Positions 14,990-20,171 of a stretch of 45,165 nt of DNA are shown one piece after another (within the stretch, counting starts at the first letter, position 1; every line of letters begins with the position of its first letter). The stretch spans positions 1 to 45,165 of the forward strand of contig JACSRP010000109.1 in the NCBI GenBank assembly GCA_014879665.1, read 5' to 3'. The DNA is from Anaerolineae bacterium. Its GTDB lineage: Bacteria > Chloroflexota > Anaerolineae > Aggregatilineales > Phototrophicaceae. The position numbers and the translations under genes are program-made. Under the pieces are notes generated by a model that was not told where the DNA came from, ran no database searches, and saw nothing but the letters and a program-made list of their open reading frames with translations.

Positions 14990-16342
14990 CTAACTATTCT
15001 GCGCCATCGTTAATAGCTGCTCAGCTATTCCTAGCTTGCCCATCGCCAGATTAAGCTCGGCAATCTGACTATCGGCTAATGCCGTGAGGTTCCCAGTCTG
15101 GCAAGCGCCCCCAAAGAGCATCCAACTGGTTCGAATTGCAGTGAGTGCCTCGTTGATCAATCGCGCTGCTTCCGAAAGTTGCGGCACTGCCTGCGCCACG
15201 TCTGCTGGAAGTTCGTAATTAGATGGAATCTGTGCGGGTGTGCTGAGATCGTTACAACCCTGCGTTTGCCCGAATGCGCCAGCATCCGTCCAGTATTGCA
15301 AGATTAGGCTGCCTGCGCCCCGCGGCGCCGTCAGGGAATCACTCATTGCAAGCAGGTTTCGCAGTGCGGTATCGGGATCAACAATTACAATTTCACGGGT
15401 AGGGGGCGCTAAAGTTGGTGGCACAGTCGGCATCAGGGTGGCTTCTATCTGCGGCACAGTCGGCATCAGGGTGACTTCTATCTGCGCTGCTGGCGCTTCA
15501 GTGGTGCTGTCAGTTTCGGCGAGCGGATGCGCGCTTTCAGCCGCCCTCAAAATATCATCGGCAGCTGGCAGCGCCTGTACCGCTGGCACAATCATCCCGT
15601 ATACCGGGCCAACGCTCTGTGCATCCAGCGTTTCAGCGCCGTAGCAAGCCGCATCAAACCGCTGGCGCGCCTCCTGTTCGCGGCTGAGGATATCATTCAG
15701 CAAAGTGACCACCTGCGCCAGATCAGGGAATGCGCCAACGTTCACCTGTGAAAATGCGCCGGGCTGCAAGTCATTAAAATATGCTTGACAATCAAAGGCG
15801 CCGCCGCCAAGCACGGCTTGAAATTGTGATTGCAGCGTCGTCAAATTATCGCGAAGCTGGTTAAACATCGGGCGTATTTGCCCGGCTGCTGCCGCCTTCG
15901 CCGCATAATCTATAGGGCGCTCAATGGTGGGAACAACATTACTTAGCACGCCTGACGGCAGATAAGAATACAGGGCAAATAGCGCCACGCAGGACAGTGT
16001 TAAGGCTAGCGCTGTTTTCACCCAGCGGCCTATGCGCCTGCGCTGCCCGATTTTGCCCTCAATTTCAACTCTGGTAAGCAGCTTCGTGACCTTCTCTTCT
16101 TTACCAGCTTGAAGCGCAGCATCCACAGCCCGAAATTGGCCGAGCGCGTAAGCTGCTGCATCACGTACTCTGACATTTGAATCGTTCAGATAGACTGAAA
16201 TCAATTCATCAACGGCGCTATCTGCCGCCAATTCTCCCAGCATCGAGGCCGCATCCCGGCGGTCACGCCAGTTTGACGACGCAAGCATGTTAATCAATCG
16301 CTCGATCTGCTGCTGGCGTGCGGTAATTTCAGCTTGGCTCAT
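14990..16342 (-). CDS. HEAT-repeat single-pass membrane protein
   Basis: 450 aa, function unknown. Residues 1-75 contain HEAT-like repeats (RRDAASMLGELAADSAVDELI, then VRVRDAAAYALGQF), which usually bind partner proteins in the cytoplasm. A membrane helix lies at about 106-128 (TALALTLSCVALFALYSYL). The outside part of about 320 residues contains paired Cys residues and a Pro/Thr spacer with an 11-residue duplicated unit (LMPTVPQIEAT). GGAG lies about 9 nt before the ATG. It stands alone between two terminators. The general plan, inside repeat domain, one helix and outside domain, matches the TPR/SH3b protein in this window. Confidence 0.75.
   Translation of the reverse strand: MSQAEITARQQQIERLINMLASSNWRDRRDAASMLGELAADSAVDELISVYLNDSNVRVRDAAAYALGQFRAVDAALQAGKEEKVTKLLTRVEIEGKIGQRRRIGRWVKTALALTLSCVALFALYSYLPSGVLSNVVPTIERPIDYAAKAAAAGQIRPMFNQLRDNLTTLQSQFQAVLGGGAFDCQAYFNDLQPGAFSQVNVGAFPDLAQVVTLLNDILSREQEARQRFDAACYGAETLDAQSVGPVYGMIVPAVQALPAADDILRAAESAHPLAETDSTTEAPAAQIEVTLMPTVPQIEATLMPTVPPTLAPPTREIVIVDPDTALRNLLAMSDSLTAPRGAGSLILQYWTDAGAFGQTQGCNDLSTPAQIPSNYELPADVAQAVPQLSEAARLINEALTAIRTSWMLFGGACQTGNLTALADSQIAELNLAMGKLGIAEQLLTMAQNS
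15420..15485 (-). repeat. 33-bp tandem duplication inside the HEAT-repeat gene
   Basis: Two head-to-tail 33-bp units, 15420-15452 and 15453-15485, differ at a single base (g/a). They encode two copies of an 11-residue unit ending LMPTVP. Near identity suggests a recent in-frame duplication. Confidence 0.9.
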
Positions 16343-16462: not shown

Positions 16463-17410
16463 CTAGTTTCCAGAACGCAAATAGACGATTAACGCATCAA
16501 TTTGCTCATCGCTCAATGGCGGATGGCCACCGCGATACGGATGTACAAATGTGTTGATGGCAGCGACTGGAGGGACTGCGTTCGTTAATATGTCCCGAAT
16601 TTCGGCATCCGTCATATCGGTCTGTGCTAGTTCAACACGATCGGCATGGCAAGACGCGCAAGCCCACGTATAAGCTGAAGCGCCATCAATTTCAACATCC
16701 GAAAGCGACTGCGCCGGGTCAAATGGCGCAAGCACAACTTGACCACTTTCGCCACTAAAGGGCGGCACGGCTGCGGGATCAAGCGCATTTATCGGCGGCG
16801 GTTCAAACGGCCTTACCGTAGCTACCACCACGGGCACTCCACTTGTATTGCTGGTCGCAGCGCCATTAAGCGAACGAATATAGGCGACCACGTGGAATAG
16901 GTCTTCATCGGTCAACGAGGGATTGCCGCCGCGGGCGGGCATTGCCTGCCCGGTGGTGTTCTCCGGATCACTCGCTGAGCGCCCGACAATCATAAAATCA
17001 ACCAATTCGTCATCGCTCAAATTATCCACAAATTCGCTGTCAACCAATGGTTTGCCAAGCCCGGGCACTCCGGCACCGCGAATTCCATGGCAGGCAAAGC
17101 ACAGCCCTGCGTAAATGCGGTCACCAGCAGCGACCTGTTCCGCTGTATAGTCCGCTTGTGCTTCAATCACGGGTTCAGTCGTCGGTAAGGGTGGCGGTTG
17201 GCTTCCATATGTCGGGGTAGCCGCTAATACCACTTCAGTCGTGGCTTCAGCAGCCGGCGAGTCGTTGTCCAACCCGGCAGGGATGATCTGGCTGGAAAAG
17301 ATCGCCAATAACACACCCACAAAAAGTAGAAACAGAACAAGAATTGCGAGCGGATTCCCGTTATCATCCGGCTGTTTTTCAGATGACAAATGTGGGGGTT
17401 GTTGGGTCAT
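16463..17410 (-). CDS. membrane-anchored dihaem cytochrome c
   Basis: 315 aa electron carrier on the outer face of the membrane. An N-terminal helix (residues about 20-40) anchors it, followed by a Thr/Pro linker. Two class I cytochrome c domains follow: CFACH at 104-108 and CASCH at 251-255. Domain 1 has AMPARGGNPSLTDEDL, giving a normal His/Met haem. In domain 2 the place where a Met is expected before PPLSDEQIDALIVYLRS reads FVHPYRGGH, with no Met, so the sixth ligand may be His. AAGGGGG precedes the ATG. It starts 10 nt after the multicopper oxidase stop, so the two form an operon, and it likely hands electrons to or from that enzyme. This partnership is inference. Confidence 0.9.
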   Translation of the reverse strand: MTQQPPHLSSEKQPDDNGNPLAILVLFLLFVGVLLAIFSSQIIPAGLDNDSPAAEATTEVVLAATPTYGSQPPPLPTTEPVIEAQADYTAEQVAAGDRIYAGLCFACHGIRGAGVPGLGKPLVDSEFVDNLSDDELVDFMIVGRSASDPENTTGQAMPARGGNPSLTDEDLFHVVAYIRSLNGAATSNTSGVPVVVATVRPFEPPPINALDPAAVPPFSGESGQVVLAPFDPAQSLSDVEIDGASAYTWACASCHADRVELAQTDMTDAEIRDILTNAVPPVAAINTFVHPYRGGHPPLSDEQIDALIVYLRSGN

Positions 17411-17420
17411 GTATGCCCCC

Positions 17421-18440
17421 TTATTCCTGTACGACCAGCGCTGTCACCATACCAAACATGCCATTAGGCCCCTCGGCATGGGAGAGAATATGGCAGTGGA
17501 AGGCCCATGCGCCCGGCAAATCACAATCTACCAAAACATCGTAACGCTCACCCGGCGCAATATTGACCGTATCACACAGGTACGGGGCGGGCAGGTTGAA
17601 ACCATCTTTAGCAATCACCAGCTGCGGCAGACCGTGCAAGTGCATCGGGTGGATCATCAAGCCTTCGTTGAAATAGCGGATACGCACACGCTGCCCTAGC
17701 TGAGCCACAATCGGTTGAGTGTAGGGGAAACCCTTGCCATTAATGGTGAAACCAAGCGCGGAGTCGTTCAGCACGAAAACATATTCAGCATCAACCTGCG
17801 GTTCACGCGAAGCATCTGCCGGATCAATGATGAAGGCGCCTAACAGCCCCCGCGTCACCTGTTCTGCTGCGTTGTGGTGCGAGTGATACATGTGGGTGCC
17901 ATAGTTGATCAAATCAAATTCATATGTGAATTCCGTGCCGGGGGTGATCGGCGGCTGGGTAATGAATGGCACACCATCCATGTTATTGGGCAAGCGTAAG
18001 CCATGCCAGTGAACTGCGGTGCTTTGCGTCATTTCATTCCGGCAAATGATACGCACCCGGTCGCCTTCAGTTGCGCGCATAACCGGGCCGGGAACCAGCC
18101 CGTTGTAGAGCATGGCCGGAAACATCATGCCGCCACCGGTATCCCAGTCAGCTTCGGTACAGGTGAGCCGGAAAACCTTAACATCCCCATCCATTTCATA
18201 TTCAAGCGGCACGCCCCAGAAATCGGGATTGCTGCCAATGCCATTCAGGAAAATATCTATGCCCTCCTGATGGTGAGCATCCATCGCCACCCAATCACCC
18301 TGTTCAACCATCTGGGACATATCGTGGCCTTCCTGCGCGGCCACCTTTGCTGCTCCAGCGCCGACCCATGCCGCGCCCACGCCGCCTACAGCAGCCCCCG
18401 CTAACTTGAGAAACTGCCGGCGCATCATGATTTCATTCAT
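17421..18440 (-). CDS. Tat-exported two-domain multicopper oxidase
   Basis: 339 aa laccase-like oxidase reducing O2 to water while oxidising metal ions, phenols or a cytochrome; substrate unknown. A twin-arginine signal is visible (MRRQFLKLAGAAVGG). All four copper-binding motifs are present: HWHG at 144-147, HSHH at 186-189, HPMHLHG at 264-270 and HCHILSH at 315-321, followed by a Met (EGPNGMFGM) suitable as a type 1 ligand. The length allows only two cupredoxin domains, as in small laccases, with the type 1 site in domain 2. AAAGGA precedes the start. The cytochrome c gene follows by 10 nt. NirK nitrite reductase was considered but the full four-motif set favours a laccase-type trinuclear centre. 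Confidence 0.92.
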   Translation of the reverse strand: MNEIMMRRQFLKLAGAAVGGVGAAWVGAGAAKVAAQEGHDMSQMVEQGDWVAMDAHHQEGIDIFLNGIGSNPDFWGVPLEYEMDGDVKVFRLTCTEADWDTGGGMMFPAMLYNGLVPGPVMRATEGDRVRIICRNEMTQSTAVHWHGLRLPNNMDGVPFITQPPITPGTEFTYEFDLINYGTHMYHSHHNAAEQVTRGLLGAFIIDPADASREPQVDAEYVFVLNDSALGFTINGKGFPYTQPIVAQLGQRVRIRYFNEGLMIHPMHLHGLPQLVIAKDGFNLPAPYLCDTVNIAPGERYDVLVDCDLPGAWAFHCHILSHAEGPNGMFGMVTALVVQE

Positions 18441-18691: not shown

Positions 18692-19522
18692 TCATGTGAC
18701 AATGGTCACCCCGTCACCAACGTGAAGCGTTCCCATACCGCGATGGATCACATTTTGCCCAAAAATGAGTTTCCCCGCTTGATTGCGTCGAAATTTATTC
18801 AAGGTTGACAAAGGTTCATGGGGATCAATGACCTTTCCCAGAGAAGGCTCAACAGTTGTGATTACGCAGCGCCCGCATGGCTTGACTATATCGAAGCTGA
18901 TGCTGTTAATCTGCATATGCTTCCAATGATCTTCAGCCCATCCGCTGCTGCCCTCTACCACAATATTAGGGCGAAACCGGCGCATTTCCATTGGCTCCGT
19001 CCCGTTTTCCGCCATTCTTAGATTGAGATTTTCCAGTGACGCCGTGGTTGCCAGCAGCAACGGGAACCCATCCGTAAAGGTCGTGGTGGCGGGTGGATTC
19101 GCAAATTCCGGGGTTACAGCGCGCTTTTGTTCGGGCATTCGCACCAGTCTGATGTCTGTATCCAGAAAGCGGCTGAACCACGCGCTCACTTCCGGTGAAT
19201 AAACCGCACCAGTCACTGTGTCTTTCCAGATCACAACTTCTAGTTTATCGGCAGGCATCAGGCTGATGGGCAGCGTCAGATCTGGCTGTGAAGGTGCACG
19301 CACGACCAGATTACCATCTTCAAGCAGTGGTTGGATCAGCGCTAATTTAGGTATTTCACGCTGTGAAGTATAAAACCAGCGACCGCCTTCTTGATGAGCC
19401 AGCATCCATTCGCGATCATAGTCCGGCCCATGAACGCCTAGATTCATCTGTTCAAGCGCGATTCCCGCACAAGATTTGATGGGGTAGATATGCAGCGATG
19501 AAACCCAAATTGTATGATCCAC
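18692..19522 (-). CDS. MOSC domain protein (molybdenum cofactor sulfurase C-terminal-like)
   Basis: 276 aa cytoplasmic protein. The N-terminal beta-barrel part reads VSSLHIYPIKSCAGIALEQM and GPDYDREWMLAH. The C-terminal MOSC part contains MRRFRPNIVV, KPCGRCVITTVEPSLG and FGQNVIH, including the conserved Cys thought to bind the Mo cofactor. Relatives (YcbX, mARC-type) reduce N-hydroxylated compounds using Mo cofactor and an electron donor such as a flavodoxin or ferredoxin. A flavodoxin gene is divergently placed just upstream. The frame extends to 19597, but GTG 19522 has AAAGGA about 8 nt upstream and gives the usual length. Enzymatic activity is inferred only from the family. Confidence 0.85.
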   Translation of the reverse strand: MDHTIWVSSLHIYPIKSCAGIALEQMNLGVHGPDYDREWMLAHQEGGRWFYTSQREIPKLALIQPLLEDGNLVVRAPSQPDLTLPISLMPADKLEVVIWKDTVTGAVYSPEVSAWFSRFLDTDIRLVRMPEQKRAVTPEFANPPATTTFTDGFPLLLATTASLENLNLRMAENGTEPMEMRRFRPNIVVEGSSGWAEDHWKHMQINSISFDIVKPCGRCVITTVEPSLGKVIDPHEPLSTLNKFRRNQAGKLIFGQNVIHRGMGTLHVGDGVTIVT

Positions 19523-19601
19523 AGAAACAGTCCTTTTGTACGATTTTTCCACAATTAAGCATGGTTTTGAAAACGCCGTTCGATTTTCGCGGCGCACGAT
19601 T

Positions 19602-19652: not shown

Positions 19653-20171
19653 ATGGCATCTATCGGCTTATTTTATGGCAGCAACACCGGAAATACCGAG
19701 AATGTTGCCTATATCCTCAAAGAAGAGTTCGACAAGATTTTGCCCGGTGCGGTTGATGTACACAACATTGGTCGTTCCACGCCAGAAGATATCCTGCGCT
19801 ACAACAATATCATCATCGGCATTCCTACATGGAATACAGGCGAGCTTCAAGACGACTGGGACGCATTCATGCCCAAGTTTAACAGTATGGACATGAATGG
19901 AAAGAAAGTTGCGCTGTTTGGTCTGGGCGATCAGAACGGCTACGGCTTCAATTTTCAGGATGCAGTCGGCATCGTTGCTGATAAAGTGATGGAGCGCGGC
20001 GCACAGGTTTGGGGATTGTGGCCCACTAGCGGTTACCAGTTTGAAGAGAGTAAGGCGCGGGAAGATGAATTCTTCCTTGGCTTAGCGGTTGATGAAGTGG
20101 GCCAAACTGAGATGACACGCGGCCGTATTCAGAACTGGGTTAAAGCCGTAAAGGCGGAATTCGGGCTGTAA
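19653..20171 (+). CDS. fldA: flavodoxin (long-chain)
   Basis: Small FMN-binding electron carrier of 172 aa, cytoplasmic. The phosphate loop GSNTGNTE at residues 9-16, the WNTGELQDDW segment and the GLGDQNGYG segment supply the FMN site. The 20-residue insertion near FNFQDAVGI/WPTSGYQFEESKA marks the long-chain class. GAGG lies 8 nt before the ATG. It is divergent from the MOSC gene and upstream of the SRP RNA. Flavodoxins often replace ferredoxin when iron is scarce, but no Fur-like box was recognised here. Confidence 0.95.
   Translation: MASIGLFYGSNTGNTENVAYILKEEFDKILPGAVDVHNIGRSTPEDILRYNNIIIGIPTWNTGELQDDWDAFMPKFNSMDMNGKKVALFGLGDQNGYGFNFQDAVGIVADKVMERGAQVWGLWPTSGYQFEESKAREDEFFLGLAVDEVGQTEMTRGRIQNWVKAVKAEFGL

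Follow-up and report, generated by a model that had tools for sequence, protein, structure and literature searches.

In a 45,165-nucleotide stretch of Anaerolineae bacterium DNA (contig JACSRP010000109.1, hereafter the window), a two-domain multicopper oxidase (MCO) is encoded beside a dihaem cytochrome c whose second haem domain carries His where class I cytochromes carry their distal Met. Both the pairing and the Met-to-His swap are conserved in many relatives, a pattern suggestive of a dedicated electron chain with few members. The MCO gene (P0002; 17421..18440, minus strand; 339 amino acids) lies upstream, and the cytochrome gene (P0001; 16463..17410, minus strand; 315 amino acids) begins 10 nucleotides downstream; the unstranded gap between MCO stop and cytochrome start (17411..17420) follows from the open reading frame (ORF) coordinates. 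An earlier note on this DNA had described two genes with this spacing, and the coordinates agree with it. The cytochrome is of class I type and matches the Pfam families Cytochrome_CBB3 and Cytochrom_C, and the MCO matches Cu-oxidase_3, Cu-oxidase_2 and Cu-oxidase.

The haem attachment motifs are CFACH (residues 104-108; 17087..17101, minus strand) and CASCH (residues 251-255; 16646..16660, minus strand), and in each the C, C and H are invariant in all 19 aligned dihaem orthologues. Domain 1 is a class I cytochrome c, with C104, C107, H108 and M157 invariant in the same 19 sequences and with agreement between Pfam and fold; Met157 (16940..16942, minus strand), in the sequence MPARGG, is the haem 1 distal ligand by alignment. 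Domain 2 likewise has a CxxCH motif and the three-helix c-type fold (Pfam Cytochrom_C, 1.4e-5, and a structure model), but the column of the sixth-ligand Met holds His in 33 of 33 distinct domains. The earlier note had remarked that domain 2, with its CxxCH at 251-255, reads TFVHPYRGGHPPLSDEQ in place of the usual Met, and had proposed His as the sixth ligand. The first point holds and the second is well supported by sequence: the alignment places no Met at the ligand position and has H290 there instead (16541..16543, minus strand, in HPYRGG). H290 falls on Met157 when profiles of 23 second-type and 19 first-type domains are aligned with each other (hhalign probability 99.7, E 5.7e-26), and the two residues share one MAFFT column in a pooled alignment. 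M157 and H290 are each invariant in 19 of 19 dihaem orthologues, and H290 is one of only five columns (C, C, H, H and D) that are invariant across 23 of 23 aligned His-type domains, so its presence is more than chance. The adjoining Pro is nearly invariant in these 23 domains, whose mean column identity is 46%, as against 68% for the 19 rows of domain 1. No Met, Lys or further Cys is invariant in the 23 rows. Two other candidate ligands were dropped, namely the Met of the TDM segment, which is not conserved in those rows, and H296, which is Tyr in 15 of the 23 and His in the window alone; the segment quoted in the earlier note is therefore conserved at H290 and not at H296. At the level of sequence, His as the sixth ligand of haem 2 and the Met-to-His swap are well supported, and the folded protein would have bis-His coordination by H255 and H290.

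Within the order, 32 genomes together supply 33 distinct domains in which His occupies the ligand column. These counts come from a pooled alignment of 171 CxxCH windows, reduced to 109 by a profile cut-off and removal of near-duplicates, in which the ligand column holds 71 M, 34 H, 2 V, 1 Q and 1 A. Apart from the His-type domains, Met is present in 71 of 76 rows, and the remaining five (H, which is L118, and V, V, Q and A) seem to be misaligned, each with Met a few residues earlier. The pool includes ten further loci read after a His-type profile was run against 154 genomes of the order, where a cut at E 1e-17 left matches of either type in 40 genomes; more divergent His-type domains, with or without an oxidase, may exist beyond that cut. 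Across the phylum, 235 of 400 genomes matched at E up to 0.001, and Met is found in all 29 loci read besides the window (28 and L107). Cytochromes at L131, L132 and L134-L138 repeat ones already counted and were not added to the totals. A search with the cytochrome alone gave 77 stretches that matched the pattern, none of which was confirmed. In a tree of 104 rows and 97 columns, from which the five misaligned-looking rows were excluded, in which the ligand column was kept and whose bootstrap had not settled, the His rows make up one side of one branch (support 99/91), corresponding to one change; the swap therefore probably happened once.

Haem-less relatives of these domains also occur. In two genomes (G088 and G092, in the latter on a contig that does not carry the MCO), a Met-type domain is followed by repeats that are devoid of CxxCH and whose ligand position is occupied by neither His nor Met. 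Loss of the His together with the haem was considered for these repeats and discounted, as they may descend from the Met type. The G088 protein (L093:1529-4153), encoded beside the MCO, fuses a Met-type haem domain, three such repeats, each with an RGG core, and a SCO1/SenC domain.

The partnership with the MCO is recurrent. Among 101 related genomes, 33 hold one MCO orthologue each (58-100% identity), and the next matches drop to 44-49%. Some c-type cytochrome lies beside the MCO in 30 of these 33, including 22 with a His-type domain. The neighbour is a dihaem protein with one Met-type and one His-type domain in 19 genomes, whereas three have only His-type domains (single in G024 and G034, and two in G047, where the gene is cut by the contig end), four have only a Met-type haem domain (G006, G039, G044 and G088) and four have a different, single-haem Met cytochrome (G022, G066, G087 and G099). 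No cytochrome was seen beside the MCO in the last three (G029, G036 and G092), in two of which the contig ends no more than 200 bp downstream of the MCO. Eight further His-type genomes from the search of the order carry the MCO at the same locus, so that the pair is found in 30 of 32 His-type genomes; in the other two (G027 and G519) the cytochrome is at a contig edge and pairing cannot be judged. The gene pair of the earlier note thus recurs widely, and the pairing is well supported. The two genes run in the same direction in 5 of the 30 paired genomes and divergently in 25, which indicates that the partnership survives rearrangement.

In the G047 cytochrome (L075:5161-5880), whose frame enters the contig end, both of the haem domains that could be seen are of the His type, and none is of the Met type. 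The N-terminal region is long in the different single-haem cytochromes of four genomes (L082:9122-9841, L083:7322-8200, L086:8893-9690 and L087:6964-7902), which also have a Met-Pro step. Other genomes of the order encode relatives of the MCO (42-49% identity) fused behind a beta-propeller (L095:5590-7755, L096:5306-7780 and L100:6689-9154), in open frames of 722-825 amino acids with YNCE and Cytochrom_D1 matches. A contig with a Sphaerobacter title carries a second, distant copper-oxidase-type protein just upstream of the MCO (L146:806-1936).

The cytochrome has a hydrophobic segment near its N terminus. A linker of low model confidence separates this segment from haem domain 1, and another linker separates the two haem domains. 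The hydrophobic segment (residues ~21-39; 17294..17350, minus strand) has a hydropathy of 3.1 over 19 residues and is a helix (20-39) in the AlphaFold2 (AF2) model. It is the only such segment and is probably a membrane anchor, by which the cytochrome would be tethered. The earlier note had both proteins exported; the MCO has a twin-arginine motif, and the cytochrome is better read as held at the membrane than as free.

The full-length AF2 model of the cytochrome is of moderate confidence, with a predicted local distance difference test (pLDDT) score of 69.4. Domain 1 finds its best fold match, level with the further class I cytochromes ranked next, in the haem c domain of a three-domain haem-Cu nitrite reductase (4ax3; Z 11.0, 94 residues aligned, 2.6 A). 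Domain 2 modelled alone reaches a pLDDT of 85.5 and also matches class I cytochromes, most closely the NirN haem c domain (6rte; Z 8.0, 67 aligned, 2.3 A). An engineered Met58His cytochrome c6 (4h0k; Z 7.5, 65 aligned, 2.3 A) comes third, level with other c6 matches. The ranges aligned with 4h0k end at 77 and 83, which puts His52 of the model (H290) and residue 58 each 25 residues before the end; in the model, this agrees with H290 occupying the position of residue 58, as a comparison of range ends and not a residue-level alignment. In both models, confidence within domain 2 is lowest in the residues that directly precede H290.

The MCO begins with a twin-arginine motif, RRQFLK, in which R7 is conserved in 33 of 33 orthologues and R8 in 32 of 33. 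Together with Cu-oxidase_3 and Cu-oxidase_2 this motif bears out the description in the earlier note of a two-domain MCO exported by twin-arginine translocation (Tat). Ten copper-ligand His residues and Cys316 are invariant in all 33. Individual ligands are assigned to the type 1 (T1), type 2 or type 3 sites according to known laccase motifs. By these motifs, the T1 ligands H264, C316, H321 and M331, the last of them probably a ligand, lie in the C-terminal domain, and the trinuclear site comprises H144, H146, H186, H188, H267, H269, H315 and H317; each of these residues is present in 33 of 33. The domain-2 copper motif HCHILSHAEGPNGMFGM (residues 315-331; 17448..17498, minus strand) has H315, C316, H317, H321 and M331 in all orthologues and M328 in 29 of 33. 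In domain 1 the HCH of 2zwn and 3g5w is replaced by HSHH, and the Cys position is Ser in 32 orthologues and Ala in 1. Because the T1 ligands are in domain 2, the MCO is of type B, by the rule that this type has T1 in the C-terminal domain (PMC13151041, extract). Two other identities were rejected on NCBIfam scores: nitrite reductase NirK (Cu_nitrite_red, 49.4 bits against a cut-off of 296.3) and copper-resistance oxidase (copper_res_A, 181.2 bits against 478.95).

We think it probable, by a modest measure, that the two genes encode a unit at the outer face of the membrane, in which electrons pass through a bis-His and a Met/His haem to the type B MCO and on to O2. One transmembrane helix would hold the cytochrome there, and flexible linkers would carry its two haem domains of class I type. 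Haem 1, with Met/His ligation, would have the higher potential and haem 2, with H255 and H290, the lower. A reductant, perhaps a quinol-side donor, another cytochrome or an external donor, would reduce the His/His haem, from which electrons could pass to the Met/His haem and, by direct contact between the proteins, to the T1 copper in the second domain of the MCO. The trinuclear cluster of the secreted MCO would then reduce O2 to water. A laboratory change of the distal ligand from Met to His in cytochrome c typically lowers the potential by ~320 mV (PMC11791136, extract), and the T1 potential of one type B MCO was measured as 537 mV (PMC13151041, extract); on these values, electrons should fall from His/His to Met/His to T1 to O2. 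The lower potential that the earlier note proposed for haem 2 would thus follow from published swaps (PMC11791136, extract), and its path to oxygen is plausible in that the trinuclear-copper ligands are all present in the 33 orthologues. In a wider version of this proposal, the tethered cytochrome with its His-switched haem would collect low-potential electrons, whether from the respiratory chain or from an external donor, and feed them to a trimeric type B MCO, as a path to O2 that neither pumps nor involves a haem-copper oxidase and that evolved once in the order; we consider this version less likely than not.

Several observations weigh against such a relay. Neither haem domain is indispensable to the pairing (of the 33 genomes, 3 are His-only, 4 Met-only, 4 have another cytochrome and 3 have none), and haem modules are interchangeable between genomes. 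Ligation by H290 is read from alignment. A high-potential form of bis-His cytochrome c550 has reportedly been described, to judge from the title of a reference, and bis-His ligation therefore need not force a low potential. In the trimer of a type B enzyme, the T1 site looks onto a central tunnel (PMC13151041, extract), a placement that may hinder docking of a globular cytochrome. COX1 is present in the window's own genome and in 93 of the 101 genomes searched, so that an extra path to O2 is not obviously needed, and co-occurrence with haem-copper oxidases is uninformative. Among farther MCOs (Herpetosiphon, Gemmatimonadota, Thermomicrobiales and others), no cytochrome matching our own profile was found within 2.5 kb, in a test for which some loci were short and unmatched CxxCH ORFs lie near L150, L151 and L165; this suggests that the oxidase family can work alone.

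The solitary MCOs fit a different account, in which electron flow is reversed or the two proteins act independently: the MCO would be a laccase-like or metal oxidase that uses O2 on phenols, Cu(I), Mn(II) or Fe(II), and the cytochrome would receive electrons from, or protect, the same substrate site. The MCO does match copper-resistance and CueO profiles, below their cut-offs, a characterised type B two-domain MCO is a slow laccase with T1 at 537 mV (PMC13151041, extract), and a cytochrome is not seen beside 3 of the 33 orthologues or, by profile, beside most distant ones. However, c-type cytochromes adjoin the other 30 orthologues and the pair is kept in 30 of 32 His-type genomes, a T1 site at ~537 mV would be a poor reductant for a bis-His haem, and no shared copper-transport neighbour stood out in a rough clustering of 34 loci. 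We regard this account as unlikely, if still a serious competitor. It is improbable that the His-type haem is instead catalytic or ligand-binding, with peroxide, O2 or NO as its target, the His leaving ferrous haem and the MCO an accessory. Such behaviour has a precedent in unfolded bis-His cytochrome c, in which one His leaves Fe(II) and O2 and H2O2 are reduced (PMC8398203, extract), whereas domain 2 is modelled as a compact class I fold, and an invariant H290 with a nearly invariant adjoining Pro suggests a fixed ligand. More improbable again is that H290 is kept for structure, haem 2 being five-coordinate or bound by another residue. The low model confidence just before H290 and the reliance on alignment leave some room for this, yet H290 is invariant in the exact Met column, and domain 2 offers no invariant Met, Lys or further Cys in its place.

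Stop-to-stop ORF clustering of the 34 loci, a rough procedure in which some cluster members are antisense ORFs, gave the MCO and cytochrome clusters as the commonest, followed by an ABC ATPase-like cluster (10 loci), and no other shared neighbour, copper transport included, stood out. In the window, a HEAT-repeat protein (14990-16342) lies downstream of the pair, and a MOSC-domain protein (18692-19597) and a long-chain flavodoxin (19653-20171) lie upstream; by the same clustering, none of the three is among the shared neighbours.

A natural Met-to-His swap that seemingly occurred once and was kept across 32 genomes beside a fixed redox neighbour amounts to a natural test of the axial ligand, and in most of these proteins a Met-type sister haem accompanies the swapped one. 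The proposal also offers a candidate electron donor for a type B MCO; the physiological roles of this group are said to be poorly understood (PMC13151041, extract).

Each part of the system resembles something known. A His-Pro step towards the C-terminus holds the ligand His of PsbV (cytochrome c550); domain 2 of the window cytochrome has His at the ligand position by alignment. PsbV is absent from the matches listed for the cytochrome, which carries no weight for or against a likeness. PsbV combines a class I-like fold with unusual bis-His axial ligation and a hydrophobic C-terminal extension (PMC9603157, extract). It is an extrinsic subunit of photosystem II, whereas the window protein is probably anchored, ends 25 residues after H290 without a comparable extension, and differs further in its additional, Met-type haem and in the copper oxidase encoded beside it. 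Type B two-domain MCOs include SLAC and CjMCO, the latter also with a Tat signal (PMC13151041, extract); the window MCO differs from both in its adjoining cytochrome gene, and no SLAC was recognised among the 60 matches listed for it. Among solved structures, 2zwn and 3g5w are nearest in sequence, and their HCH in domain 1 makes them type C by the same rule. We take 3g5w to be NcgA, and ncgB and ncgC to encode cytochromes. On that understanding, the ncgABC-nirK cluster also encodes a two-domain MCO with c-type cytochromes, but it has the type C copper layout and a nirK neighbour. In Nitrosomonas europaea this cluster is linked to nitrite tolerance (PMC6967387, extract; gene order in PMC4940428, extract). 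In haem-Cu nitrite reductases (4ax3 and 2zoo), too, a two-domain copper enzyme goes together with a class I haem domain; their haem is fused and the enzyme reduces nitrite, whereas the window haem is on a separate protein and the trinuclear-site ligands are present. The three-domain haem-Cu nitrite reductase uses a mononuclear type 2 copper. Within open-licence literature, we found no description of an MCO combined with a His-type cytochrome; bis-His class I cytochromes such as PsbV, type B MCOs and oxidase-cytochrome clusters such as ncgABC are each known separately.
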